Source: Thermoflexales bacterium
Lineage (GTDB): Bacteria > Chloroflexota > Anaerolineae > B4-G1 > DUEL01
Reading direction: 5' to 3'
Length of the DNA stretch: 33,261 nt
Assembly: GCA_014360895.1 (NCBI GenBank)
Contig: JACIWQ010000026.1
Location: 1-33,261 of the forward strand
Shown here: positions 6,534 through 31,189 of the stretch, in pieces
How the letters are laid out: the number at the start of each line of letters is the position of its first letter
Numbering within the stretch: the stretch's first letter is position 1
The notes under the pieces: model-generated
Database searches by the model: none
What the model was told of the DNA's origin: nothing
Seen by the model: only the letters and a program-made list of their open reading frames with translations
Program-made: the position numbers and the translations under genes

Positions 6534-6953
6534 TTATCTCAATATCTCCGGATAATCCACTCCGCCCGATTTCAGGTACTGCTCTATCAGGCCGGGCAGG
6601 CGCTCGGGGATTTGGGCGGAGCCCACCAGCACTTGGTCGCCGATGAAAAGCATGGGCACCCCGCGCCAGTCGTTCGGCACCCGGTAGGCGTCCATGGCCT
6701 TCATCCAGAGTTCGTAGTTGGCCTGATCGGAGACCGCCAGCATTTTGATCTCCAACTGGTCGCCGTACTGCTTCTGGAGCGGCGGCAGGACCTGATCCAT
6801 GACGTAGTGGCAGTGGGGACAGGTCTCCGAATAGAAGAGGACCGCCCGCACGACAGGCTTCGCGGCGGTGGGACCGGTCGCTCCCGAGGAGCACCCGACC
6901 AGCATGGTCAGCACAAAGAGAGCTGCCAGGATTCGGCGCATGTTCACCTCCAT
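6534..6953 (-). CDS. Thioredoxin-fold lipoprotein
   Basis: Lipobox-like LTMLVGCSSG; CPHC redox motif; RGVPMLFIGDQVLVG. Confidence 0.82.
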   Translation of the reverse strand: MEVNMRRILAALFVLTMLVGCSSGATGPTAAKPVVRAVLFYSETCPHCHYVMDQVLPPLQKQYGDQLEIKMLAVSDQANYELWMKAMDAYRVPNDWRGVPMLFIGDQVLVGSAQIPERLPGLIEQYLKSGGVDYPEILR

Positions 6954-6960
6954 AAAGTAT

Positions 6961-7058
6961 TACGTATTGCGTATTCCGTTTGTCGCGCCGGCGGCCAGGC
7001 CGGTAGGGTACAGGCGGACAGCCTGCGCTACGCATACTCACGGAATACGGAGTACGCA
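6961..7058. repeat. Composite intergenic repeat, GGAATACGCAATACG arms around a GC-rich core
   Basis: Left tacgtattgcgtattccgt, right acggaatacggagtacgca, with gtacaggcggacagcctgc in the middle. Confidence 0.75.
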
Positions 7059-7062
7059 GCAC

Positions 7063-9927
7063 TCACGGCCGCGCGGCCATCACGGTATGCAGCGCGCTGC
7101 AGGCCGGACAGGCGCCACCCGGACGGATAATGGCAAAGCCGTCCTGGGGGTCGTCAAAGTAGCGCAGGAAGTCCACGTTCCAGATGATGATGCCGCGCAC
7201 CAACCCGCTCTCCCGGGCCAGTTGGACGGCCTCCGCCAGCCAGGCCGCCTGCTGGGCGTTCGTCGTCTCCCGGGCCCACCAGAGGTGGTCCGGGAAGGTC
7301 GGAACGCCCTCCTGGGACGCGTAGCCCAGTTCGGTGTAGAAGAGTTGTTTGGTGCCGCCGAAGATGTTGTAGTAGAGTTGCATCTGGGGCAGGAAGTACC
7401 AGGAGTGGTGATGGCGGCCGTCGTCGGCGGGGTGGCCGCTGACCGCCGACGGCGAGGTGGCGCCGAAGTTGTAGTGGACGCCCAGGTAGTCCATGCAGTC
7501 GGCGCCGCCGGCGGCGTAGATGCCCTGCAGGAACATCCGGTCGTCGCAGCCGGTGGGGGTGCACTGGTCAAAGGCGCCGGTGGGGGCCGGAGCGGCGGCG
7601 ATGACCAGGGTGTTGGGGTTGGCGGCCTTCACGGCGTCGTAGGTGGCGCAGAGGAGACGGGTATAGGCCTCCGGGCTGATGTAGCCCGGCTGCCACTCCC
7701 GGTCCACGTTCGGCTCGTTCCAGACCTCAATGGCGTCCGCCCCGGCGGCGGCCAGACGCGCTGCCCAGCGGGCAAAGTTCTCCTCAAAGCCCTGCTGGGT
7801 GACCATGCCCGCCGGCCCCACGGTGCCGATCAGTATCTTGAAGCCGCGCCGGTGGGCCGCGCCGATGACGGGCGCCGTCTCCTGGGGGTAGCGGACCTGG
7901 GCCTTGACCCAGGTCATCCCGGCGTAGCGCATCTTGTCGGCGTAGGGCAGGTCCAGGTTCCAGACGTGGCCGCCGATCTCAAAGGGGCCGCCCTGGGCCA
8001 GGGTGCCCGGGTTCTGCTCCGCCAGCGCGGCCAGGCCGCCGGGCAGAGGGCCGAAGACGGCCTGAACCTTCTCCGGCTCGTACACTTCCAACATGCACTG
8101 CCACCAGTCTATCCCTTCCGTCTTCTGGAGGTGCCACCAGTTGATGTCGGGCCAGAAGTAGCGCCAGCGGTAGAGGGCCGGGGCCCGCTCCCAGCCGTAG
8201 TCGGCGGCCAGCGCGGTCAGGTCCACGTAGTATCCGGCGGGGATTTTTTCCAGAGGACGGCCGCCCTGGGCGGCAGCGCGCGCGTCCTCATCCCGGGCCT
8301 TCAGGTCCCAGGGGGGCACCCGCAGCGGTTCTCCCAGACTGCCGTCCTGCCGGGCGGCGCGCAGATAGACCCGCCAGTAGGTCTCGTTCCCGACGTCCTC
8401 CCGGACCAGCAGGACGCGCGGCGGCGTCTCGTCGTAGGGGCTCTGGTCCAGGTCCACCGCCCGCCCGCAGAGATGCCAGTTATTGCGCTGTTCGGCGTTC
8501 TCCATGGGCTGCCAGGCCAGGGCGACGGTGGAGAGGTAATCCCAGCCCGCTTCCTCGGCGACGCGCCGCCGCAGGGCCTGGAAACTGTCGTCCACCCGGT
8601 CGTTCAGCCGCAGCCAGTCGTATTGTTTGCCGCTGGGGTCGGGCAGGTAGACCAGGGACTGCAGGGTCCCGGTGGGCGACGAGGACTGGACGAATTCGGT
8701 GTAGATGGACGGTTCGGCCGCCGGCTCGGCGGCGCGGGCCCGGGCAATCGCGCGGGCGGAAAGGGGCACCGTACTCCAGACCGGACGGGAGATGAGGCCC
8801 GGGTCGCTGTAGATTTCCTGGGAGAGGCCCCAACCGTAGAGGCTGGACGCGATGAGGTAGGAGCGACCGGCGCGCCGGTAGACGGTGAGCAAGCTCTGGC
8901 CGTCGGGGGCCCAGGTGGGGGTGGAGCCGGAGCCGAAGAGGTCGGTGGACGAGAGGCGGAGCATCGGCTGGGCCTGGGGGCCGCCGCGCGCCGCCCATTC
9001 CAGCGTGCTGACCTGGACGGTGGCATACCCGGCGCGGGCAATGGTGTAAGCCAGCCGCTTCCCGTCGGGCGACCAGGCCGGGTCCGATTCGTTGACGTCC
9101 GGGCTGTTGGTGACGTTGATCTCGGTGCCCGCCAGGTCGCCGTCAATGAAATAGAGAAAAATATCCTGGTTGCCGTTGCGGTAGGAGACGAAGGCGACTG
9201 CCGAGCCGTCGGGCGACCAGGCCGGGCTGTAGTCGGGGGCGGGGTCCGTGGTCAGCCGCCGGACGTTGTTCCCGTCGGCGTCCATGACGTAAATATCCAG
9301 GTTGTCCTCGCGGTAGGACTCAAAGGCGATTTGTTCGCCGTCGGGCGACCAGGTGGGGCCGCCGTCAAAGCCGGGGTAGCGGGTGAGGCGGATCAGCGCG
9401 CCGCCTTCCAGGTCCAGCAGGTAAATATCCCAGTTGCCGCCGCGACGGGAGGCGAAGGCCAGGAGGGAGCCGTCGGGCGACCATGCGGGGTCCCGGTCCT
9501 CCGCCGGGTCGCTGGTGAGGCGGACGATTTCGCGGGTGGTCTGCTGGATGGCGTAAATGTCAGCGTTGCCGTTGCGGCGAAGGGTGAAGGCGACGGCGCC
9601 GCCGCTGCCGAAGGGAGTGGGGGTGGGACCGGCGCTGGGGTTGGGGAGCGGCGTCGGGGTGACGACGACGGTGACCACCGGCGGGCGGGCGCTCAGGGCG
9701 ACGCCGGCGCGGTAGAGGGCCAGGGCCAGCGCGGCCAGGATGAGGCCGTTGGCCAGGACCAGCAGGGCCAGCAGGCGCAGGGCGCGGGGAGAGAGGACGA
9801 CGGACGGCACTCCGCCGGCACTGCGAGCCTGATTCCGAACGGGGCGACGCAGGCGCCGCCGCACTGCGGCCCAGAACTGTTGGGGGAAAGAAAGCTCTCC
9901 CGATTGAGAGACCGGCCGGTCGTCCAT
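7063..9927 (-). CDS. Membrane-anchored multidomain protein: TM, PD40/TolB-like beta-propeller, M15 peptidase-like region, clan GH-A glycosidase-like domain
   Basis: Start trimmed to MDDRPVSQSG. TM segment ALRLLALLVLANGLILAALALAL; repeated PAWSPDGS...F.S.R.GN.DIY units; WHLCGRAVDLD...NWWHLQ; EVWNEPN and FYTELGY. Confidence 0.8.
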   Translation of the reverse strand: MDDRPVSQSGELSFPQQFWAAVRRRLRRPVRNQARSAGGVPSVVLSPRALRLLALLVLANGLILAALALALYRAGVALSARPPVVTVVVTPTPLPNPSAGPTPTPFGSGGAVAFTLRRNGNADIYAIQQTTREIVRLTSDPAEDRDPAWSPDGSLLAFASRRGGNWDIYLLDLEGGALIRLTRYPGFDGGPTWSPDGEQIAFESYREDNLDIYVMDADGNNVRRLTTDPAPDYSPAWSPDGSAVAFVSYRNGNQDIFLYFIDGDLAGTEINVTNSPDVNESDPAWSPDGKRLAYTIARAGYATVQVSTLEWAARGGPQAQPMLRLSSTDLFGSGSTPTWAPDGQSLLTVYRRAGRSYLIASSLYGWGLSQEIYSDPGLISRPVWSTVPLSARAIARARAAEPAAEPSIYTEFVQSSSPTGTLQSLVYLPDPSGKQYDWLRLNDRVDDSFQALRRRVAEEAGWDYLSTVALAWQPMENAEQRNNWHLCGRAVDLDQSPYDETPPRVLLVREDVGNETYWRVYLRAARQDGSLGEPLRVPPWDLKARDEDARAAAQGGRPLEKIPAGYYVDLTALAADYGWERAPALYRWRYFWPDINWWHLQKTEGIDWWQCMLEVYEPEKVQAVFGPLPGGLAALAEQNPGTLAQGGPFEIGGHVWNLDLPYADKMRYAGMTWVKAQVRYPQETAPVIGAAHRRGFKILIGTVGPAGMVTQQGFEENFARWAARLAAAGADAIEVWNEPNVDREWQPGYISPEAYTRLLCATYDAVKAANPNTLVIAAAPAPTGAFDQCTPTGCDDRMFLQGIYAAGGADCMDYLGVHYNFGATSPSAVSGHPADDGRHHHSWYFLPQMQLYYNIFGGTKQLFYTELGYASQEGVPTFPDHLWWARETTNAQQAAWLAEAVQLARESGLVRGIIIWNVDFLRYFDDPQDGFAIIRPGGACPACSALHTVMAARP

Positions 9928-9938
9928 TGTTGTGCATT

Positions 9939-10022
9939 TTACCACAAAGACACGAAGACACAAAGGGAATTAACAATTTAAAAATTAACAATAATTCTTC
10001 GTGTCTTGGTGTCTTCGTGGTT
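9939..10022. repeat. Intergenic inverted repeat, ACCACNAAGACACGAAGACACAAAG family
   Basis: accacaaagacacgaagacacaaag / cttcgtgtcttggtgtcttcgtggt arms around an AT-rich centre; related copies at 15285-15418. Confidence 0.85.
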
Positions 10023-10023
10023 T

Positions 10024-10896
10024 CTAAACCAACTCCTCCAGCAGACGCCGGATTTGCTCCGGGCGGAGTTTCTCCAGGGGCCGGGGGGCCAGCGGGCCGG
10101 CCCTCAGCGCCGGGACCTGCTCCTCGTAGGCGGGCCGGTCCTCCACCTGGTAGAAGACGCCGATGGGGATGCGGTCGCCCCATTCCAGCGCCCTCGCGAA
10201 GGCCGCCATTTTGTCGGTGACGTCGTAGGTCGGGTCGTCCTGGAGTTTGTAGACCCGGGGTCGGTAGTAGTCGTAGGAGTTCTGGCGGTTGAAGGTGACG
10301 CAGGGCTGGAAGATGTCTACCAGCGCGTAGCCCCGGTGACCCAGCGCGCGGACGATGGTCTCCGTCAGGTGGTTCAGGTCGCCGGACCAGGAGCGGGCGA
10401 CAAAGGTCGCGCCTGCCGCCAGCGCCAGCGCGATGGGGTTGACCGGCAGTTCAAAGGCACCCCACGGGGAGGTCTTGGTCACCCGGCCCCGGTCGCTGGT
10501 GGGGGAATACTGGCCCTTCGTCAGGCCGTAGATGCGGTTATCCTGGATGATGTCCACCAGGCCGATGTTGCGGCGGGCGGCGTGGAGCATGTGGCCCAGC
10601 CCCTCCGCGTAGGCGTCGCCGTCGCCGTGGGTGCAGATGACCCGCAGGCCGTGGTTGGCCAGCCGGATCCCCGTCGCCACCGGGACCGTCCGGCCGTGCA
10701 GGGTCATGTAGCCGTTGGCGCGGGTGTAGTCGGGGAGTTTGCTCCCGCAGCCGATGCCACCCACAATCATCACCTGGTGCGGCGCCAGCCCCACCTGGGC
10801 CAGCGCCCGCTTCACCGCGTTCCAGATGGCAAAGTTCCCACACCCGGTACACCAGGTGGGGCGAACGGGACTGGCGAAGTCGTCTACGGTAACCAT
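10024..10896 (-). CDS. korB: 2-oxoacid:ferredoxin oxidoreductase, beta subunit
   Basis: RPTWCTGCGNFAIWNAVKRAL, GGIGCGSKLPDY, HGDGDAYAEGLGHMLHAARRN (TPP-binding beta subunit). Confidence 0.94.
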   Translation of the reverse strand: MVTVDDFASPVRPTWCTGCGNFAIWNAVKRALAQVGLAPHQVMIVGGIGCGSKLPDYTRANGYMTLHGRTVPVATGIRLANHGLRVICTHGDGDAYAEGLGHMLHAARRNIGLVDIIQDNRIYGLTKGQYSPTSDRGRVTKTSPWGAFELPVNPIALALAAGATFVARSWSGDLNHLTETIVRALGHRGYALVDIFQPCVTFNRQNSYDYYRPRVYKLQDDPTYDVTDKMAAFARALEWGDRIPIGVFYQVEDRPAYEEQVPALRAGPLAPRPLEKLRPEQIRRLLEELV

Positions 10897-10912
10897 TGCG
10901 CTTCCTCCACAA

Positions 10913-10991
10913 ACGGAACACGCGATACGGAATACGCAATACGCAGTACGGAATACGCTATGGGGTACGTATTGCGTATTCCGTGTTCCGT
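10913..10991. repeat. Intergenic inverted repeat, GGAATACGCAATACG family
   Basis: acggaacacgcgatacggaatacgcaatacg versus cgtattgcgtattccgtgttccgt; related to 6961-7058. Confidence 0.85.
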
Positions 10992-12706
10992 AAGATGTAC
11001 TCCGGCGAAATCGGGCGGCCGTCCCATTTCAGGATGCGGCGGGAGACGGTGTGGCCCGTCGCCATGCGGAGCAGGTCGGCGAACTGGCCGGAGTAGTTGC
11101 CCTCCACGGCAATCGTCTCGCCCGTCAGGAGGGACTCCACACCCTGGGGCACGGGCCAGATGTCGGCAAAATGGAGCATCCGGGCCCGCACGCCCTGCTC
11201 GCTCAGCCGGTCCACCGCCTCCCGCAACGGCCCGTAGGTGGAGCCCCAAGCGATGAAGGTCAGTTCGGCGTCCTCCGGCCCATAGACGGTGGGCGGGCGC
11301 ATCTCCGCCCGGGCCGTCTCCAGTTTGCGCATCCGCTTGGCGTGCATCCGACGGCGATTCTCGGCGTCCTCCTCAATGTGGCCGTACTCGTCGTGCTCAT
11401 CGCTGGAGGAGGCGTAGACCGCCTTCGGGTGGCCGGGGATCGCGCGGGGAGAGACGCCGCTCTCGGTGAACCGATGCCGTTTGTACTCGCCCTCCAGGCT
11501 GTCCAGTTCCGCCTCCGTCAGGAGTTCGCCCCGGTCTATGACCACCGCGTCAAAGTTCAGGTCCTCCGGGGCCACGTCCCGGACGGAGGTCGCCAGGTAG
11601 TGGTCGGAGAGGACGATGACCGGGGTCTGGTAGCGCTCGGCGAAGTTGAAGGCCCGCCAGCCGGCCTCAAAGGCCTGCTCCACCGTCCCCGGAGCCAGGA
11701 TGATGCGCGGGAACTCGCCCTGGGAGGCGTGGAGGACGAAGAGGAGGTCTCCCTGCTCGGTCCGGGTCGCCAGGCCGGTGGAGGGGCCGGGCCGCTGGGC
11801 CTCGTAGACGACGACGGGGACCTCCGTCATCCCGGCCAGGCCCAACGCCTCCACCATCAGGGAGAAGCCGCCGCCGGAGGTAGGGGCCATGGCCCGCACC
11901 CCCGCGTACCCGGCGCCGATGGCCATACAGAGGGCGGCAATCTCGTCCTCCACCTGGAGGGTGACGACGCCGTACTCTTCGGCGTGGGCGGCCATCCACT
12001 CCAGGACGGGGCTCCCCGGCGTCATCGGGTAGCCGGAGACGAAGCGGCAGCCGCCCGCCAGCGCGCCCATCGCAAAGGCCTGGTTGCCGTTGAGCAGGAG
12101 CCGCCTCGGCGCGCCCGGCACCGCCTCCATCCGGAAGGGGAAATCGTCTTGGAAGGGACGGGAGGCCTTCACGCCCGCCGCGATGACCCGCAGGTTGGCG
12201 TCCACCACCGCCGGCCCTTTGCGGGCGAAGTTATCCCGTGCCACGCTCTCAATGTAGGCCGGGTCAAAGCTGATGAGCCCCGCGGCGACGGCGAAGACCA
12301 GCGTGTTGCGCATAATCGCGCTTCCTCCCGCCTCCTCCGCCAGTTTGGAGAGGGGGATGGAGAAGTACTGGACGTCGGGCCGACGGGGGACCTCGGGGAG
12401 GCCGTCTTTTTCGTCGTAGACGACGGCGCCGCCGGGCACCACCGCGCCGATGTGCCGCCGGACCGTCTCCTGGTCCAGGGCCAGGAGCAGGTGGACCGGC
12501 TCGGTATGGCTGTAGAGGGGACGGCGGGCGAGGCGGACGGTGAAGAAGTTGTGGCCGCCGCGGATACGGGAATGGTAGTCGGCGAAGCCGAAGACGTGGA
12601 GCCCGCCGCGCACCAGCGCCTGGGAGAATCCCACGCCGCTGGATTCCAGGCCCATCCCGGCTTCGCCGCCGATGCGGATGGTCAGGTCATCCAATGGGGA
12701 GAACAT
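10958..12706 (-). CDS. korA: 2-oxoacid:acceptor oxidoreductase, alpha subunit (fused gamma-alpha)
   Basis: N-terminal gamma-type IRIGGEAGMGLESSGVGFSQAL; GNQAFAMGALAGGCRFVSGYPMTPGSPVLEWMA. ATG at 12706 has an upstream GAGGTG. Confidence 0.93.
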   Translation of the reverse strand: MFSPLDDLTIRIGGEAGMGLESSGVGFSQALVRGGLHVFGFADYHSRIRGGHNFFTVRLARRPLYSHTEPVHLLLALDQETVRRHIGAVVPGGAVVYDEKDGLPEVPRRPDVQYFSIPLSKLAEEAGGSAIMRNTLVFAVAAGLISFDPAYIESVARDNFARKGPAVVDANLRVIAAGVKASRPFQDDFPFRMEAVPGAPRRLLLNGNQAFAMGALAGGCRFVSGYPMTPGSPVLEWMAAHAEEYGVVTLQVEDEIAALCMAIGAGYAGVRAMAPTSGGGFSLMVEALGLAGMTEVPVVVYEAQRPGPSTGLATRTEQGDLLFVLHASQGEFPRIILAPGTVEQAFEAGWRAFNFAERYQTPVIVLSDHYLATSVRDVAPEDLNFDAVVIDRGELLTEAELDSLEGEYKRHRFTESGVSPRAIPGHPKAVYASSSDEHDEYGHIEEDAENRRRMHAKRMRKLETARAEMRPPTVYGPEDAELTFIAWGSTYGPLREAVDRLSEQGVRARMLHFADIWPVPQGVESLLTGETIAVEGNYSGQFADLLRMATGHTVSRRILKWDGRPISPEYILRNTEYAIRTP

Positions 12707-12717
12707 GGGACACCTCG

Positions 12718-13065
12718 TCACTGAATACGCACGATCACCCGGCCGCGCCGCCAGAGGGCTTCCAGGTTGTAGTAGGCGCGGACCTGGGGGTCAAAGATAT
12801 GCACCACGACCGGACCGTAGTCCATCAGAATCCAGCCAGATGATGGCTCTCCTTCCACGTGCAGGGGGGAGACGTCCAGAGCTTTCTCAATCTCCTCCCG
12901 GATTCCGCTCTCCAGCGCCTGCAATTGTCGGTCGCTGGTGCCGCTGCAGAGGACGAAATAGTCGGTCAGCATGGTCAGTTCGTGGATGTCCAGGAGCAGG
13001 ATGTCCTCTCCCTTCTTCTCCACGATGACGTCCACAATTTGTCGGGCCAGGTCTATCGGTTCCAG
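12718..13065 (-). CDS. rsfS: Ribosome silencing factor RsfS, probable CTG start
   Basis: ORF track starts at a GTG at 13035. Extending to CTG at 13065 gives (M)EPIDLARQIVDVIVEKKGEDILLLDI with AAAGGAGG just upstream; a TGA lies two codons upstream of the CTG. Confidence 0.88.
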   Translation of the reverse strand: MEPIDLARQIVDVIVEKKGEDILLLDIHELTMLTDYFVLCSGTSDRQLQALESGIREEIEKALDVSPLHVEGEPSSGWILMDYGPVVVHIFDPQVRAYYNLEALWRRGRVIVRIQ

Positions 13066-21614: not shown

Positions 21615-21643
21615 ATTATACCCTATCGGGATGGGCTTCGCAA
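21615..21643 (-). promoter_or_regulatory. Sigma70-like promoter for rfbB
   Basis: Reverse strand TTGCGA, 17 bp, TATAAT. Confidence 0.65.
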
Positions 21644-21648
21644 ACGGC

Positions 21649-21677
21649 TTGACAATTGGTCAGGCCTGGCATACAAT
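21649..21677 (+). promoter_or_regulatory. Sigma70-like promoter for the FHA gene at 21685
   Basis: TTGACA, 17 bp, TACAAT; the ATG starts 7 nt after the -10. Confidence 0.75.
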
Positions 21678-21684
21678 TTTTTGT

Positions 21685-22482
21685 ATGAACCGCATCGCGC
21701 GCTTTGAGGCTCTGGCGGAACAATGGGTAGAGGGGACGTTCGCCCGGCTCTTCGGCGGGCAGATTCACCCCCTGGAAGTGGCCACCCATGTGGCCCGGGC
21801 GATGGAGGACGTCTGCTCCCAGGCCGCCGACGGCACCCCCATAGCCCCGACCCACTACCAGATTGACCTCCACCCGCAGGACCTGGACGCGCTGCGGGCG
21901 CGCCACCCCGCGCCGGAGGAGGAACTGGCCCGCTACGTGGAGGACCTGGCCCGCCAGGCCGGAATGCTCCTGTTGACCCCACCCGTTATTACCCTGAACC
22001 CGCTCCCGGACATGCCCAACCATACGGTGCGCGTTCAGGCTTTCCATGAGCAGGCGGAGAGCCGCGATGAGAGTGTCACCCGCCAGATGGATGGGGGCGC
22101 CCCGCCGCCCGCAGAGCCATCCCCGGGCTACTGCTTCCTCATCATCGGCGGACAGCGACACGTCCCCCTGACCGCGCCCACGGTCAACATCGGGCGGGCG
22201 CTGGATAACGACATCATCATAGAGCACCCCCATGTCTCCCGCCACCACGCCCAACTCCGCCGCCGCTACGGCCGCTACGTCCTCTACGACCTGGGTAGTT
22301 CCGGTGGGACGCTGGTCAACGGCTACCCCGTCCAGGAGTGCGTCCTCCGCTCCGGAGACGTCATCTCTCTGGCGGACTTTGAGATCATCTACGGCGAAGA
22401 GCCCTCCCCTCCTCCCGGTGAACCGCCCGAAGAGGCATCCACCACAGAGGGAATCCCTGTCCAGCCCCAGGAATTGCAATGA
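21685..22482 (+). CDS. FHA-domain protein with N-terminal DUF3662 (FhaA-like)
   Basis: FEALAEQWVEGTFARLFGGQIHPLEVATHVARAMED; FHA core INIGRALDNDIIIEHPHVSRHHAQLRR (reads VNIGRALDNDI). Confidence 0.92.
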   Translation: MNRIARFEALAEQWVEGTFARLFGGQIHPLEVATHVARAMEDVCSQAADGTPIAPTHYQIDLHPQDLDALRARHPAPEEELARYVEDLARQAGMLLLTPPVITLNPLPDMPNHTVRVQAFHEQAESRDESVTRQMDGGAPPPAEPSPGYCFLIIGGQRHVPLTAPTVNIGRALDNDIIIEHPHVSRHHAQLRRRYGRYVLYDLGSSGGTLVNGYPVQECVLRSGDVISLADFEIIYGEEPSPPPGEPPEEASTTEGIPVQPQELQ

Positions 22483-22919
22483 TAGCGGGAGAAGTCCTCT
22501 TGCTGGCCCTGCGTATCCTCCTGGCCATGCTCCTCTATACCTTCCTGGCCGCGCTCTTCTTCCTTCTCTGGCGCGATCTGCGCCGCAGCGCCGGACGGGA
22601 GACAATCCCCCGCGAAGAGATGCGCCTGGTGGTTGTGAAGGCAGGGGAGCGCGGGCCGGAACCGGGCACCGTCTTCCCTCTCCAAGAGGTGAATTCCCTG
22701 GGACGCGCCCCCTCCAGCACCATCCGTCTATCCGACCCGTTCGTATCGTCCCACCACGCCCTGATTACCTGGCGGGAGGGACGCTGGTGGCTGGAAGACC
22801 TGGGGAGCAAGAACGGCACCACGCTCAACGACGAACCGGTCACCCGCCCGACCGTGGTGGATTCGGGGGACCTGATTGGCATCGGGAAGGTCGTTTTCCG
22901 GATAGAGGCCGGGGAGTGA
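22479..22919 (+). CDS. FHA-domain protein with N-terminal TM helix (FhaB-like)
   Basis: N-terminal TM; NSLGRAPSSTIRLSDPFVSSHHALI...LEDLGSKNGTTLN. Confidence 0.92.
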   Translation: MIAGEVLLLALRILLAMLLYTFLAALFFLLWRDLRRSAGRETIPREEMRLVVVKAGERGPEPGTVFPLQEVNSLGRAPSSTIRLSDPFVSSHHALITWREGRWWLEDLGSKNGTTLNDEPVTRPTVVDSGDLIGIGKVVFRIEAGE

Positions 22920-22978
22920 CCCCCCGCAGACTTCCGCTCTGAAGAGCTTTGTGCAACATCCAACTGCCGGAGGATGTC

Positions 22979-23881
22979 GTGAAACTCACCACCATGCACG
23001 ACGCCATCGCCCAATACGTCCACGACGGCGACACCGTCGCCATTGAGGGCTTCACCGCCTGCATCGGCTTCGCCGCCGCCCACGAAATCATCCGCCAGGG
23101 CCGGCGGGACCTGGTCCTCTGCCGGATGACCCCCGACCTGGTCTACGACCAGATGGTCGCGGCCGGGTGCGCCCGGAAACTGGTCTTCTCCTACCTGGGC
23201 AACCCCGGCGTGGGCCCCCTGCACGCCATCCGGCGCGCGGTGGAGAAGGGCATCCCCAACCCCCTGGAACTGGAGGAGTACTCCCATTTCGGGATGGTCG
23301 GGCGCTACATCGCCGGGGCCTACCGCCTCCCCTTCTTCCCCCTCCGCTCCTACGTGGGCAGCGACCTCCCGAAGGTCAACCCCCGCATCCAGTTCGTGGA
23401 GAGCCCCTACGGGGACGGGCCCGTCGCCGTGGTGCCGCCCCTCAACCCCGACGTCGCCATCATCCACGCCCAGCGGGCCGACGTCCACGGCAACACCCAA
23501 CTCTGGGGACTGCTGGGGGCCCAGAAGGAGGCCGCCTTCGCTGCCCGGCACGTCATCGTCGTGGTAGAGGAGATTGTAGACGAAGAGGTCATCCGCTCCG
23601 ACCCCAACCGGACCCTCATCCCCGGCCTGATCGTGGACGCGGTGGTCCACGAGCCCTACGGCGCCCATCCCTCCTACGTCCAGGGCTACTACGACCGGGA
23701 CAACGACTTCTACCTGCGCTGGGACGAGATCAGCCGGGACGAGGCCGCCACCCGCGCCTGGCTGGAGGAGTGGGTCTACGGCGTCCGGGACCGGGCGGAG
23801 TACGTGGAGAAGATGGGCCGGGAGACCTGGGAGCGGCTCAAGCCCGCCCAGGCCTGGTCCCGCCCCGTCAATTACGGTTAG
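22979..23881 (+). CDS. CoA transferase subunit A (GctA-type)
   Basis: GDTVAIEGFTACIGFAAAHEIIRQ...; GTG at 22979 preceded by GGAGG. Confidence 0.88.
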   Translation: MKLTTMHDAIAQYVHDGDTVAIEGFTACIGFAAAHEIIRQGRRDLVLCRMTPDLVYDQMVAAGCARKLVFSYLGNPGVGPLHAIRRAVEKGIPNPLELEEYSHFGMVGRYIAGAYRLPFFPLRSYVGSDLPKVNPRIQFVESPYGDGPVAVVPPLNPDVAIIHAQRADVHGNTQLWGLLGAQKEAAFAARHVIVVVEEIVDEEVIRSDPNRTLIPGLIVDAVVHEPYGAHPSYVQGYYDRDNDFYLRWDEISRDEAATRAWLEEWVYGVRDRAEYVEKMGRETWERLKPAQAWSRPVNYG

Positions 23882-23927
23882 CCCGTAGGACAACGGCTCG
23901 CAGTTGTCTACATTGCAGGAGATGGCT

Positions 23928-24692
23928 ATGAGCGACTACTCTCCCTCCGAGATGATGATCGTCGCCGCGGCGCGGGCGCTGGCGGGGGTCCGGACGGTCT
24001 TCGTGGGCGTGGGGCTTCCCAACGTCGCCTGCAACCTGGCCCAGCGGACCGTCGCGCCGGACCTGGAACTGGTCTACGAGAGCGGGGTGTACGGCGCGCG
24101 GCCAGCCCGCCTCCCCCTCTCCATCGGCGACCCGGCCCTGGTCACCGGCGCGCTCTCCGTCTGCTCTATGGCCGACCTCTTCGGCCTCTACCTGCAGGGG
24201 GGCCGGATAGAGGTGGCCTTCCTGGGCGGCGCGCAGATTGACCGCTTCGGCAACCTGAACACCACCGTCATCGGCGACTACGCCCGCCCCAAAGTCCGCC
24301 TGCCCGGCTCCGGCGGCGCGTGCGAGATCGCCATCCACGCGAAGCAGGTCTTCATCATCATGCGCCTGAGCTGCCGGTCCTTCGTGGAGCGGTTGGATTT
24401 TCTCACCAGCCCGGGCCACCTGGGCGGCGCGGGAGAGCGAGAGCGGTTGGGGATGCCGGGCCGGGGGCCGCAGGTCGTTGTCACCGACAAGTGTGTCTTC
24501 CGGTTTGACCCCGCCAGCGGCGAGATGGTGCTGGTGAGCCTCCATCCGGGGGTCCGGCTGGAGGACGTCCGGGCCGAGATGGGCTGGGAGCCCCGCGTCT
24601 CCCCCGACCTGAGGGAGACAGAGCCCCCAACCCCTGAGGAACTGCGCCTCCTGCGGGAGGAACTGGACCCGCTGGGGGTGTATCGGTCGTAG
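23928..24692 (+). CDS. CoA transferase subunit B (GctB-type)
   Basis: YESGVYGARPARLPLSIGDPALVTGA and GGAQIDRFGNLNTTVIG; AGGAG upstream of the ATG. Confidence 0.88.
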   Translation: MSDYSPSEMMIVAAARALAGVRTVFVGVGLPNVACNLAQRTVAPDLELVYESGVYGARPARLPLSIGDPALVTGALSVCSMADLFGLYLQGGRIEVAFLGGAQIDRFGNLNTTVIGDYARPKVRLPGSGGACEIAIHAKQVFIIMRLSCRSFVERLDFLTSPGHLGGAGERERLGMPGRGPQVVVTDKCVFRFDPASGEMVLVSLHPGVRLEDVRAEMGWEPRVSPDLRETEPPTPEELRLLREELDPLGVYRS

Positions 24693-24696
24693 GATT

Positions 24697-24915
24697 CACC
24701 GCAAAGAGCGCAGAGGGCGCAGAGACGATGAAAGGTTTTTTCTCTGCGTTCTCCGCGTCCTCTGCGGTTTCAAAGGATTTACCGCGGAGAGCGCAGAGGG
24801 CGCAGAGAAGACTTTTGAGTGTGGGACAACTGCGAGCAGTTGTCCCACAAAGCGCAGAGGGCGCAGAGACGATGAAAGGTTTTTTTCTCTGGGTTCTCCG
24901 CGTGCTCTGCGGTTA
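24697..24915. repeat. Composite intergenic repeat, ACCGCRRAGAGCGCAGAGGGCGCAGAG family, with a nested palindrome
   Basis: Two related hairpin units; the second contains gtgggacaactgcgagcagttgtcccac. Confidence 0.88.
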
Positions 24916-24927
24916 AAGGGAGGAGTT

Positions 24928-26115
24928 ATGCGAATCCAGGACGTGGTCATCCTTTCCGCCGTGCGGACGCCCATTGGGGCGTTCGGCGGCGCGCTGAAGG
25001 ACATCCCGGCGGCCCGGCTGGGGGCGGTCGCCGCGCGGGCCGCGCTGGAGCGGGCCGGCATCCCCCCCGACGGGGTGGACGAGGTCATCTTCGGGTGCGC
25101 CCGCCAGGCCGGCAACGGCCCCAACGTCGCCCGGCAGGTCGCCTGGCACGCGGGGGTCCCCGTGGACCGGCCCGCCTTCACCGTCAACAAGGCCTGCGCC
25201 AGCGGCCTCAAGGCCGTCACCCTGGGAGTCCAGTCCATCCTGACCGGTGAGAACCAGGCCGTCCTCGTCGGCGGCGTGGAACAGATGTCCCAGATTCCCT
25301 ATCTCCTGCTGAAGGCCCGCTGGGGCTACCGGCTGGGGGAGGACACGGTGGTGGACGCGATGTACCGGGACGGCTACATGTGCCCGCTGGCGGAGATGCT
25401 GATGGGGGAGACGGCGGAACTGCTGGCGGAGCGGTACGGAATCTCCCGCGAGGAGCAGGACCGGTTCGCGCTGGAGAGCCACCGGAAGGCGGTGGCAGCG
25501 TGGGAGAGCGGCGCTTTTGCGGGCGAGGTCGTCCCGGTGGAAGCCCCCGGCCCCAAAGGGGGGACGGTCATCGTGGAGCGGGATGAGCGTCCACGGGCGG
25601 ACACGTCGCTGGAGAAACTGGCGAAACTCCCACCGGCCTTCAAGAAGGACGGGACCATCACTGCCGGGAACGCCTCCGGCATCGCCGACGGCGCGGCCGC
25701 GCTGGTCGTCGCCTCCGCCGACTGGGCCCGGGCCCACGGGCTGACGCCGAGCGCGCACTTTCTGGGCTTCGCCTCCGGCGCCGTCCACCCCCGGGAGATG
25801 GGGTTGGGCCCCGTCCCCGCCACCCTCCGGCTGCTGGAGCGGACGGGGCTTTCGCTGGACGACTTTGACCTGATAGAACTGAACGAGGCCTTCGCCGCGC
25901 AGGTGCTGGCGGTGGAGCGGGAGTTGCCCTGGGACCCGGCCCGGCGCAACGTTCACGGCGGCGCGGTCGCGCTGGGCCATCCCACCGGATGCACCGGCGC
26001 GCGCATCCTGGTCACCCTCCTCAACGCCCTGCGGGTCCACGGCCGGGCGCTGGGCCTGGCGACCCTCTGCGTCAGCGGCGGGTTGGGGATGAGCGTGGCG
26101 GTGGAAATTCTTTAG
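24928..26115 (+). CDS. Acetyl-CoA acetyltransferase (thiolase)
   Basis: [63 protein letters not shown]. Confidence 0.95.
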
Positions 26116-26145
26116 GTGACCGTCACCTTTGAGGTGACGGTCACC
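26115..26145. terminator. Doubly palindromic hairpin between convergent thiolase and yajC
   Basis: ggtgaccgtcacc tttga ggtgacggtcacc: arms are perfect reverse complements and each is itself near-palindromic. Confidence 0.6.
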
Positions 26146-26152
26146 TTTCCGA

Positions 26153-26419
26153 TCACTCGCCGGAGGGCCCCACCCGTCGGCTGATGGCCCCGATGTTGAA
26201 GCGAATCTCCACCCCAGGGGCAACCTCCAGGCGCGCCAGGCCGCTCTCCCGGTCCAGGTAGGTCAGTTTGCCGTAGATGCCGCCGATGGTGATGACCTCG
26301 TCGCCAACCTGGAGTTCGTCCATACGTTGCTGGTATCGCTTGCGCGCCCGCCACTGGCTCCAGAGCATGAAGCCCAGCATGGCGGCAATAAAGATGATGA
26401 GAACAAGGGTTTGGTCCAT
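26153..26419 (-). CDS. yajC: Preprotein translocase subunit YajC
   Basis: Single TM then RKRYQQRMDELQVGDEVITIGGIYGKLTYL. Confidence 0.93.
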   Translation of the reverse strand: MDQTLVLIIFIAAMLGFMLWSQWRARKRYQQRMDELQVGDEVITIGGIYGKLTYLDRESGLARLEVAPGVEIRFNIGAISRRVGPSGE

Positions 26420-26523: not shown

Positions 26524-28875
26524 TCAGGGCCGCTCCGCGATGACCGCCTGGCCCAGGGAAATCCCCGCGATGACCGCCTGGCCCAGGGAGATGCCCGCGT
26601 CGTTGGGCGGGACCAGGCGGTGGACGTAGACCGTGAACCCCGCTTCCTCCAGGAGTGCCATCGTCTTCCCCAGCAAGGTGATGTTCTGGAAGACGCCGCC
26701 GGAGAGGGCCACTTCGTTCAGGCCGGTCCCGGCGCGCAGCCGCAGGCAGACCTCCCGCACCATCGCCGCCACGCCGTTGTGGAAGCGGGCCGCGATCACG
26801 CCGACGGGCACCCCGTCCCGCACATCCTCCACGACGGCCCGGACCACCGGCGCCGGGTCTATCTCCTCTCCCACTCCGAATGGGTACGCCTCCTCCACGC
26901 CCTCCGCCACCTGCATCTCCAGTTCCACCGCCGCCTGGGCCTCGTAGTTGATCTCCTGGCGCACCCCGGCCAGCGCGGCGACAGCATCAAAGAGCCGCCC
27001 CATGCTGGAGGTGGGGACGACGTTCAGCCCTTGGACCAGTTGCCGCTCCAAGACGGCCCGTTCGGCCTCCGTCGCGGCGGCCACGGGCGGCAGGCCCTCG
27101 TCCCAGGAGACCCCCGCCGCCCAGAGGTGGGCCAGGGCCGTCCGGTAGGGCCGCCGGATCGCCGCGTCGCCTCCGGGAAGGGGGATGTAGCGGAGGTGGG
27201 CCACCCGCCGGAAGGACGCGTAGTCCGCAATCAGAAACTCCCCACCCCAGATGGCCCCATCCGTCCCGTAGCCGGTGCCGTCAAAGGCCACGCCGATGAC
27301 CGGACGGTCGCCCGCCAGTCCGTTCTCCGCCATGCACGCGGCGATATGGGCGTGGTGGTGCTGGACGGGGACGAGGGGCAGACGGCCTGCCCGTTCCCGC
27401 GCGTAGCGGGTGGAGAGGTAGGCCGGGTGCAGGTCATGGGCCACGACCTCCGGCTCCACCCGGAAGGTCCGCTTCAACTGCTCCACCATGTCCTCAAAGA
27501 AGCGCAGCGTCTCGTAGTTCTCCATATCGCCGATGTGCTGGCTGAGGAAGGCATACTGCTCGCGGGTCAGGCAGAAGGTGTTCTTCAGTTCGGCCCCCAC
27601 CGCCAGGACAGGCCGGACGGAGAAGGGCAGGTGGACGGGGTACGGCGCGTAGCCGCGCGAGCGCCGGATGGGGAGTTCGGCCCCCCGAAAGATGCGGGTG
27701 ACGCTATCGTCGCAGCGGGCGTGAATCTCCCGGTCGTGGAGGAGGAACGCATCCGCCAGTGCGGCCAGCTGCTCCAGCGCCTCCTCGTTCCGGGTGACAA
27801 TGGGCTCCTCGGAGTAGTTGCCGGAGGTCATCACCAGCGCGAGGGGGAAGCCCTCCGCCGGTTCCAGGAGCAGGTAGTGGAGGGGGGTGTAGGGGAGCAT
27901 GACGCCCAGGTAGCGGTTGCCCGGCGCCACCAGCGGGGAGATGGGGGCATCCGCCCGGCGGCGCAGGAGGACGATGGGCCGCTGACGGGAGGTCAGCAGG
28001 GCCCGCTCTGCCTCGTTTACCTCGCAGTACCGCTCCACCGTCGGGAGGTCAAAGGACATAATGGCGAAGGGTTTGTCCACCCGTCCCTTGCGCTCCCGCA
28101 GGCGGGCCACCGGCGCGTCGGTGGTGGCGTCGCAGGCCAGGTGGAATCCCCCCAGTCCTTTGACGGCGACAATCCGGCCCTCCCGAATCGCCGCACGCGC
28201 GGCCTGCAGGGCCTCCTCGCCGTAGAGGGGTGGGGCATCCGGCGCGGCCCGGAACTCCAGCCGTGGCCCGCAGACCGGGCATGCGTTGGGCTGGGCGTGG
28301 AAACGGCGGTTGGCCGGGTCGTCGTACTCTGCCTGGCAATCCGGGCACATCACGAAGGGAGCCATCGTCGTGTTGGGCCGGTCGTAGGGGATGTCCCGGA
28401 TAATGGTGAAGCGGGGGCCGCAGTTGGTGCAGTTGATGAAGGGGTAGCGGTAGCGCCGGTCGCGGGGGTCAAAAAGTTCCCGCAGGCAGTCGTCGCAGAT
28501 GGCGACATCCGGCGAGATGGGGACGAATTCCCCCGGCCGGGCCTCGGAGTGGAGGATGCGGAAAGGCCTCACCCCCACCCCCCCCCCCCCCTCCCCCTCT
28601 CCCGTGTGATGGGAGAGGGGAAGGGGGGTGACGGTGATGCGCTCAATGCGGGCCAGAGGTGGGGCCTCTGTCCGCAGGCGGGCGATGAATTCGTCCAGGA
28701 CGGCCTCCGGGCCCACCGCTTCTATCTCCACCCCGGAGGAACTGTTGAGCACCCAGCCGGAAAGGCCCAGGCGGGTCGCCAGGTTGTAGACGAAGGGGCG
28801 AAAGCCCACCCCTTGGACGATGCCGGTAATGTGGATGCGGCGGGAGACGAGGGGGCTGTTAGCGGCGCCGTCCAT
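26524..28875 (-). CDS. hypF: Carbamoyltransferase HypF
   Basis: Acylphosphatase-like [26 protein letters not shown]; paired CxxC zinc fingers; [27 protein letters not shown]. Confidence 0.96.
28569..28632. repeat. Palindromic repeat with a C14 run, in frame within hypF
   Basis: tcaccccca-C14-tccccctctcccgtgtgatgggagaggggaaggggggtga; encodes [18 protein letters not shown]. Confidence 0.75.
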
Positions 28876-30178
28876 TCTGGGCCACCTTTCCCAGGGCCAG
28901 GAGGGCCGCCAGCGCGGCGGCCACCAGGCCGGGGTTTGTCTTCAGAAACGAGGCCGCGCCTCTCAGGGGAGCAGGGACGGCCGCCGGGAGAGCAGGCGAT
29001 GGCGTCGGTGGGGGCGTGGGGGTCGCCGTCGGCGAAGGGGTGGGCGTCGCGGTGGGCGTGGGAGTCGGCGTGGCGGTGGGGGTCGGCGTCGCCGTCGGCG
29101 ACGGCGTGGGTGTGGGGGACGGCGTAGGGGTCGTCGTTGGCGTTGGCGGGAGGGGCGAAGGTATCGGCGATGGCAGCGGTGAAGGGGACGGTAAGGCCGC
29201 AGGCATCACCGCCGGAGATGCCCCAACCCGGTACGCCTCCGCCAGTTCGCGGGTCAGGTTCAGGTAGAGTTCTCCGTACCCCATGCTGGGCTCAATCTGC
29301 GTCCCCTCCATCCATTCGTTGAAACTGGTGACGATGACCCAGTCGGCCCCGCTCTGGGTCGCGCCCTGCCAGCAGCGGCGATAGTACTCCCCACCGGCCC
29401 GGTCGCGGACGAAGGCGTCGGCGCGGCCGGTGGCCCGGTCGTCGTATCCGGGCATGACCGTTGCCACCCAGAACTTCTCCGCACCGTTCCGGGCGCTCCA
29501 ATCCCGCACCCGTCGGCCCCAGCGGGTCAGCACCCCCTCCGGCGCCGGGTCCCAGGCGACGCTGTAAAGATGGTTGCCGTCAAACACCCGCAGGTAGTCC
29601 AGGTTCGTCCCTTCGGCAATCCAAATGGTCTCCCGGTTGGGGTCCACCTCCTGCCGGATGGCCTGCCAGGTCTCCACAGAGTACCGCTCCTGTCGCCAGA
29701 AGAAGATGACGGGACGCCCGCCCACCCGCAGGTAGGCAGGATGGGCCGCGTGGACCGTCCGCAGATGCCGGAGCGCGGCGACCACGTCGCCGGTGGAGTG
29801 GATGAAAGGACTGGTCAGTTCCAGGTCCACGGCGGCGGCGAGGCCATGTCGGGCCGCGATGTCCAGGAGCAGCGCAAAATTGGTCTCCGTCTGGTTGTTG
29901 GCGATCCAGGGGCCGTACCAGGACTGGACGAGAGCATCAATCCCGGCCTGACGGGCCCAGAGGACGTGCCGCTCTATGGTCGCCGGGTCGGCGGAGACAT
30001 ACCGCTGGGTCGGGTAGTCGGAGAGAGACCGTTCCCAGGTCGTCATGTCGTACCAGGCGTAGTAGAAAGCCAGAACCAGGCGCTCCCCGGAGGCGTGGAG
30101 GGTGGGCGCGCCGAGTCCGATGAGCACCAGTCCCAGAAGAAATCCATATCCGCATTTCCGAAACATCGTGGGATGCAT
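28859..30178 (-). CDS. GH99-like glycoside hydrolase with Pro/Thr-rich linker and C-terminal TM anchor
   Basis: Signal-like N-terminus; [48 protein letters not shown] tail; hydrophobic C-terminus. Start may instead be 30166. Confidence 0.85.
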
Positions 30179-30211
30179 TCTACCATACAACGCCGAAGAT
30201 TGGAAGTCCAT

Positions 30212-30240
30212 TTGGCCTCCGGCCTGACTTGTGGTACAAT
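30212..30240 (+). promoter_or_regulatory. Sigma70-like promoter for the PHP gene
   Basis: TTGGCC, 17 bp, TACAAT; GTG begins 7 nt after the -10. Confidence 0.6.
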
Positions 30241-30247
30241 CGTTCCC

Positions 30248-31048
30248 GTGATTCCCGATTTCCACACCCATACTCATTTCTCCTTTGATAGCCAGGCCCT
30301 GCCGGAAGAGGTCTGCCGGGCCGCCGTGGCCCGGGGGATGCCGGAGGTCGCCCTCACCGACCACATGGACCTGAACCCGCTGGACGGGGGCTACGGCTAC
30401 TTCCGGCCGGAGGCGCACTGGCAGGGCCTGCAGGACTGTCGGGCCCAGCTGGACGGCCGCGTGCGCGTCCACATCGGGCTGGAGTGCGGCGAACCCCACC
30501 TCTTCCGGGAGGGGTTGAGCGGCATCCTGGCCGCCCACGAGTACGACGTGGTCCTGGGCTCCATCCACTGGGTGGGGCACCGTCCCGTGGAGACGGCCGA
30601 GTTTTTTGACGGCCTGGACTTCCAGGAAGGGATTGAGCTCTATCTGGAGGAACTGGCCTGCCTGGCCGAGGAGGGTGATTACGACATCCTGGCCCATCCG
30701 GACATCATTCGGCGGGCGGTTTTTCACCGATTCGGCCGAACGGACCTGGATTGGACTCCCTACGAGGCCCCGATGCGGCGGGTTCTGCGGGTGGTGGCCG
30801 GACGGGGGAAGGCGCTGGAAGTGAATACGTCCTACCGGCGGCGCGGCATGGGGCCGCCCGGGCCGTCTATCCAGGTCCTGCGCTGGTTTCGGGAGGAGGG
30901 GGGCCGGTGGGTTACCCTGGGCTCCGATGCCCATCGCCCGGAGGATGTGGGCGCGGATTTCGGGGAGGCGCTGGATATGGTTCGGGCGGCCGGGTTTGAG
31001 GGGGTCGCCGTCTTCCGCCAGCGAAGGCCGTACCGGGTTCCGATTTGA
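30248..31048 (+). CDS. PHP-domain histidinol-phosphatase-like protein
   Basis: [57 protein letters not shown] start. Confidence 0.92.
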
Positions 31049-31189
31049 TTCCGGCATCCGGGCACAAAACTTCGTTGGAAATCAGACGCGGATGAACGCG
31101 GGCAGTGGCCCAGAGAATCCGTTCGGTGTTCAACAGGCGGACGCCATCGCCGACGCTGCCCATCTGACGCCCAATCAGGCGGAAAGCGT

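Follow-up and report, generated by a model that had tools for sequence, protein, structure and literature searches.

The window, that is, the whole stretch of 33,261 nucleotides of DNA analysed here, encodes a membrane-anchored protein of three folded parts. By sequence, the family to which it belongs is best seen as a LAS/M15-like branch, hitherto undescribed, that carries a propeller, and the window genus, one of uncultured Chloroflexota, as holding a pseudopeptidase of this branch that bears a glycosidase. For the function of the protein, we give an even chance to the reading in which a membrane-held, zinc-binding pseudopeptidase and the propeller recognise the wall and tether a working PslG/GH39-like glycosidase at the cell surface. 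Only part of the protein is covered by the Pfam and NCBIfam models applied here, and a search of the open-access literature found no paper on this architecture.

Protein architecture and reading frame

The gene lies on the minus strand (7063-9927, stop included; Table 1). A sequence-only reading of the window had described a continuous ORF of 955 aa; it is indeed one ORF, with a length of 954 aa plus the stop. An antisense ORF of 1037 aa (6868-9981, plus strand) overlaps it, and the minus-strand frame is preferred on the grounds of homology and selection. Within the window genus, dN/dS is 0.106 for the propeller, 0.128 for the M15-like domain and 0.077 for the glycosidase domain, values that show purifying selection on each of these folded parts.

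The same reading had proposed an N-terminal transmembrane helix, five or more PD40/TolB-like repeats, an M15-like middle and a C-terminal clan GH-A glycosidase, and this three-domain outline holds. Hydropathy places a single helix at about residues 52-71 and shows no similarly hydrophobic stretch elsewhere; the N-terminal side of the helix has a net charge of +7, and from this positive charge the rest of the protein is predicted to lie outside. The Pfam PD40 model matches in 5 stretches (E 3.3e-46; 154.8 bits against a cut-off of 20.9), and reading of the repeats suggests that the propeller probably has six blades. A TolB profile also matches it (E 2.7e-52), at 178 bits against a TolB cut-off of 343, so the TolB model is not reached. 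The propeller thus resembles TolB/PD40 propellers in its repeats and profile matches, whereas the protein differs from them in falling far under the TolB cut-off, in its membrane anchor, and in its fusion to an M15-like and a glycosidase domain. The motifs singled out earlier are all present, including WHLCGRAVDLD (H485, D492), NWWH (N596, H599), EVWNEPN (E738) and FYTELGY (E866).

Table 1. Predicted features of the protein, in window coordinates; HDEH members are the relatives that retain the full His-Asp-Glu-His quartet
Feature	Residues	Position	Strand	Basis or remark
Membrane-anchored protein: TM helix, PD40 propeller, M15-like putative pseudopeptidase, GH-A domain	954 aa	7066..9927	(-)	
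Single TM helix	about 52-71	9715..9774	(-)	hydropathy
PD40/TolB-like beta-propeller	about 109-385	8773..9603	(-)	
M15/LAS-like domain	400-632	8032..8730	(-)	predicted structure, pLDDT 90
Gln473		8509..8511	(-)	in place of Arg, invariant (37/37) in HDEH members
Asn483		8479..8481	(-)	in place of Ser of SxHxxGxAxD (36/37 HDEH members)
His485		8473..8475	(-)	first predicted zinc ligand, kept
Asp492		8452..8454	(-)	second predicted zinc ligand, kept
Asn596		8140..8142	(-)	in place of catalytic Glu; Asn in 6/6 genus members
His599		8131..8133	(-)	third predicted zinc ligand, kept
Clan GH-A TIM barrel, PslG/GH39-like	644-954	7066..7998	(-)	
Glu738		7714..7716	(-)	of WNEPN, after strand 4; predicted acid/base
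Glu866		7330..7332	(-)	of YTELGY, on strand 7; predicted nucleophile

Identity of the middle domain

The middle domain is predicted with good local and global scores (pLDDT 90.3, pTM 0.86). A Foldseek search against 350,542 PDB chains ranks LdcB from first to fourth and the Hedgehog N-domain fifth, with E values of 0.35-1.2, which are not significant. The model is consistent with an M15 fold, an assignment that is statistically not strong by structure search. Sequence profiles behave in a similar manner. None of the Pfam M15 models matches the window protein, whose middle region is without any Pfam match, and single relatives reach M15_3 and M15_4 below cut-off only (E 0.005-0.2). The M15_4 profile nevertheless aligns in register on HxxGxAxD with scores of 26.8-30.2, against a maximum of 24.8 in 60 column-shuffled controls. 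A VanY profile from the phylum aligned over the motif only, the sample of the window's order contained no VanY at E <= 1e-10, and a profile search of the domain against PDB sequences gave no meaningful match. An origin from a viral M15 endolysin was rejected, with no fold match in the viral library.

The residues of the site are more informative. The quartet H485-x6-D492...E596-x2-H599 is retained in 37 of 105 domains, and these HDEH relatives share the H-x6-D and E-x2-H spacing of the SpLdcB quartet H153, D160, E204 and H207 (PMC4087270). Additionally, relatives such as L022 have an Arg 16 residues ahead of the His, as counted in the alignment, and in a D-Ala-D-Ala carboxypeptidase R138 and H154 are likewise 16 apart (PMC11266112). 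When every alignment column was scanned for positions fixed in the 37 and mostly lost elsewhere, only R473, S483, D492, E596 and H599 emerged; R473 and S483 are columns outside those defining the HDEH group, with Arg in 37/37 and Ser in 36/37 of its members. D492 and H599 are separated by 107 residues, and 99 of 105 members either have both or have lost both.

Could the middle domain never have been M15, with HxxGRAxD and EWWH forming some other metal or ligand site on an unrelated fold? The Foldseek E value of 0.35 and the lack of a match in the viral library or of a Pfam match above cut-off speak for this view. Against it stand six positions whose order and spacing fit the LAS pattern, including two that played no part in selecting members, a coherent list of the top five folds, and the D492/H599 coupling, and we consider it distinctly unlikely. 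The residue patterns indicate that the active site of the core family is of M15/LAS type.

Among known systems, the LdcB/VanY-like L,D-carboxypeptidases (M15B, LAS superfamily; PDB 4jid, 4mph) are the closest: they share the H-x6-D...E-x-x-H order and spacing, SxHxxGxAxD, the upstream Arg, the best fold matches and the peptidoglycan context. They differ in that the Asp and the last His are 47-52 residues apart in LdcB (from residue numbers, PMC4087270) and 107 in the family, which also has a propeller and a TM helix; the window protein has lost the Glu, Ser and Arg, and identity is about 10% with a non-significant E. The N-terminal domain of Sonic/Indian Hedgehog, an M15-related pseudopeptidase, shares the zinc triad and has the LAS fold that is a candidate for the middle domain, but belongs to an animal signalling ligand without propeller or glycosidase, and no sequence match to the window protein was found. 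In Hedgehog the M15 site serves protein interaction, with the zinc triad used for binding (PMC11266112).

Decay of the active site

In the window protein the pattern is Q473, N483, H485, D492, N596 and H599, in which the predicted zinc triad is kept and the three other positions are lost. The H-x6-D...H triad is likewise present in 6/6 genus members, as is Asn596, so that the earlier remark that the Glu before WH had become Asn applies to the whole genus. The catalytic residues were checked and are absent; the window protein should therefore not be filed as an M15 peptidase. The suggestion of a degenerate or binding-only domain gains sequence support from this loss of Arg, Ser and Glu alongside a kept triad and purifying selection, and the window domain may still bind in the manner of an M15 peptidase.

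Across the family, Glu596 is retained in none of the 46 members without D492 or H599, and it is gone in 22 members in which both are present. Mapped on the tree, the intact state requires a minimum of 3 changes, of which well-supported branches force 2; for the three states taken together the figure is 8. By this reconstruction from sequence, the Glu was lost at least two to three times. The counts are of sequences and not of events, and the pairs available for a test of paired lineages were too few to reach significance.

These observations bear on two other readings of the domain. The first is that it still works as a peptidase with shifted or slower chemistry, making the protein a two-enzyme wall hydrolase that cuts peptide and glycan. 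All six genus members keep the three predicted zinc ligands, and the domain is under purifying selection. Moreover, the E204A mutant of SpLdcB retains residual activity (PMC4087270), so a missing Glu alone is no proof of inactivity. Here, however, other residues stand in place of Arg473, Ser483 and Glu596, all three of which persist in the 37 HDEH members (Ser in 36/37), and many relatives are without the ligands themselves, which implies that the family does not need the chemistry. We regard a working peptidase as unlikely. The second reading takes the domain for a functionless, decaying remnant, in which only the glycosidase matters and the N-terminal part does no more than hold it to the membrane as a stalk. 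The loss of three catalytic positions, with further losses elsewhere in the family, would fit decay. Yet the dN/dS of 0.128 is near the propeller value, and the domain is full length in all genus members and class-wide, even in lineages where the whole site is lost. A remnant is, in our assessment, highly improbable.

The fused glycosidase

The C-terminal part is predicted as a barrel of eight strands (pLDDT 81) and shows the marks of clan GH-A, namely a TIM barrel with a Glu after strand 4 (NEP) and a Glu on strand 7; E738 and E866 are invariant in the glycosidase alignment. Foldseek places PslG first (E 5e-14, probability 1.0), closely followed by other clan GH-A enzymes, and a profile search finds GH39 beta-xylosidase and PslG (E 5e-4). 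The sole Pfam match is GH113, under cut-off. PslG and the GH39 beta-xylosidases share the barrel fold and both Glu positions, while the window barrel is 18% identical to PslG and is fused to a putative pseudopeptidase.

A stand-alone homologue occurs in the window's own genome (C259, about 1050 aa). It belongs to an order-wide protein with a TM helix and an N_BRCA1_IG domain, whose C-terminal glycosidase is homologous to the fused one (67-68% identical) and whose N-terminal domains differ from those of the window protein. In a tree of these domains, the fused ones group in a clade of their own, lying outside every stand-alone domain sampled from the order (support 98/93), which rules out a recent copy of the genome's own stand-alone gene. 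On this tree, the fused domains would derive from an older paralogue or an unsampled relative.

Further glycosidases were seen in passing. Three clan GH-A proteins of about 1045, 444 and 409 aa stand in tandem at L103:6407-12142 and in C259-C260 of the window's own genome, and the first of the array has an N_BRCA1_IG domain in the own-genome homologue. At 28862-31057 (minus strand) the window encodes a predicted glycosidase of 732 aa with a GH99-like domain (E 3.2e-26) and a WbsX match.

Distribution of the core family and of the fusion

The same protein is found in five other species of the genus at 90-92% identity; among these five records, contig ends cut two at the N-terminal side and one at the C-terminal side. 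The fusion of propeller, M15-like domain and GH-A glycosidase is confined to the window genus, in 6 of 7 genomes, and its presence in six genomes rules out an assembly artefact. The remaining genome (G005, 93% complete) gave no match to the M15-like part or to a propeller-M15 gene. That genome does have the stand-alone glycosidase gene; the missing propeller-M15 gene reflects either loss or an assembly gap.

Outside the genus, relatives align to about residues 42-630 and no further. Of 298 genomes of the class, 130 have the M15-like domain, almost all of them as a single copy. Since five genus species carry the protein and the core protein occurs class-wide, the ORF is not a chance one. In a collection of species-representative genomes, a scan yielded 80 best loci, and nearly all have titles that name Chloroflexota, Anaerolineae or orders belonging to them; one is labelled Bacteroidetes, perhaps through a binning error. 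The glycosidase is found among these 80 only in five loci of the window genus. In the others the chain stops 0-47 residues past the M15-like domain, with the exception of one that has 107 residues after it and runs off its contig. Nearly all the genomes are MAGs, and statements on absence are limited accordingly.

From these alignments, the core of TM helix, propeller and M15-like domain appears to be an undescribed family spanning the class, with the addition of the glycosidase alone peculiar to the window genus. The sequence-only reading did not know this architecture as a standard one; the PD40-M15 part of it is class-wide and no isolated curiosity.

Gene neighbourhood and peptidoglycan context

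In one large clade of the family (the majority of L060-L078 and of L141-L183), the next gene downstream, on the same strand, encodes a membrane-anchored M23 peptidase. It often overlaps the M15-like gene or sits 4 bases away. It was found beside 46 members, each of them with a broken M15 site; beside the 35 intact members whose downstream sequence is long enough, it was found in no case. Because all M23-linked members fall in a single clade, the link counts as one association. A general rule for broken sites is ruled out, as 17 broken members with enough flank have no M23 gene, including those of the window genus, of its order, and L161 of the M23 clade itself. The strict pair of HxGxD and HxHxE is found in 30 of the 46 M23 proteins, and by a looser pattern 39 of the 41 with an HxH motif have HxxxD upstream. 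A pseudopeptidase-endopeptidase operon is possible in this clade. A search of the seven genomes of the window genus for an M23 gene of this type elsewhere gave no match at E <= 1e-10. With no M23 neighbour in the window's order, the peptidoglycan link of the window protein runs through its relatives only. The window genome contains mraY and transpeptidases, which rules out a loss of peptidoglycan as the cause of the dead site.

The neighbourhood also bears on a reading that leaves the cell wall uninvolved, in which the glycosidase edits an exported polysaccharide and the rest anchors a polysaccharide biosynthesis or export complex. PslG, the best fold match, acts on Psl at the inner membrane (PMC9075953), and a GDP-mannose dehydratase-like gene lies within the window together with the GH99-like protein. 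The adjoining genes, however, are housekeeping genes and no export cluster, and the M15/LAS site and the M23 partner of relatives point to peptidoglycan. This reading is, to our mind, very improbable.

Other features of the neighbourhood may be recorded. Directly upstream (10027-12721, minus strand) are the beta and alpha genes of a 2-oxoacid:ferredoxin oxidoreductase, with no evident functional link. Four ORFs of 329, 452, 225 and 436 aa (21619-26223, minus strand) have no Pfam match at E 1e-4, and some are perhaps not genes. Elsewhere in the family, a 1710-aa ORF (L080:391-5520) combining PG_binding_4, beta-lactamase-like, glutamine amidotransferase, propeller and PGA_cap parts stands directly before an intact M15-like gene.

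Proposed function and significance

In the favoured reading of a wall-recognising tether, the N-terminal helix would sit in the cell membrane with the remainder outside. The propeller and the M15-like domain would together make up an old unit for recognition of the cell wall or of its stem peptides. The peptidase of the window genus is probably unable to cut, its substrate Arg, its Ser and its catalytic Glu being gone, and the domain may have turned into a zinc-containing binding domain. The PslG/GH39-like glycosidase would be the working enzyme, kept at the envelope by the older unit, where it probably trims wall-linked or exported polysaccharide. The identity of the domains and, for other lineages, the adjacent M23 gene lead us to infer a role in remodelling. 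A wider proposal, which we put forward as possible though doubtful, is that the PD40-M15 family repeatedly shifts from peptidase to wall-docking scaffold, with a partner doing the cutting (the downstream M23 peptidase or the fused PslG-like glycosidase) and the dead zinc site guiding these hydrolases.

Pseudoenzymes are usually known as single cases. In the present family, related bacteria carry the same wall-peptidase site in intact, half-broken and fully broken forms, and two lineages have a candidate partner enzyme. This natural series is suited to the study of how an enzyme may become a binding scaffold, and makes it possible to test if a dead M15 site continues to bind the wall and guides other hydrolases. 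In addition, the reading offers a hypothesis of function for a protein present in 130 of the 298 sampled genomes of a large and mostly uncultured class.
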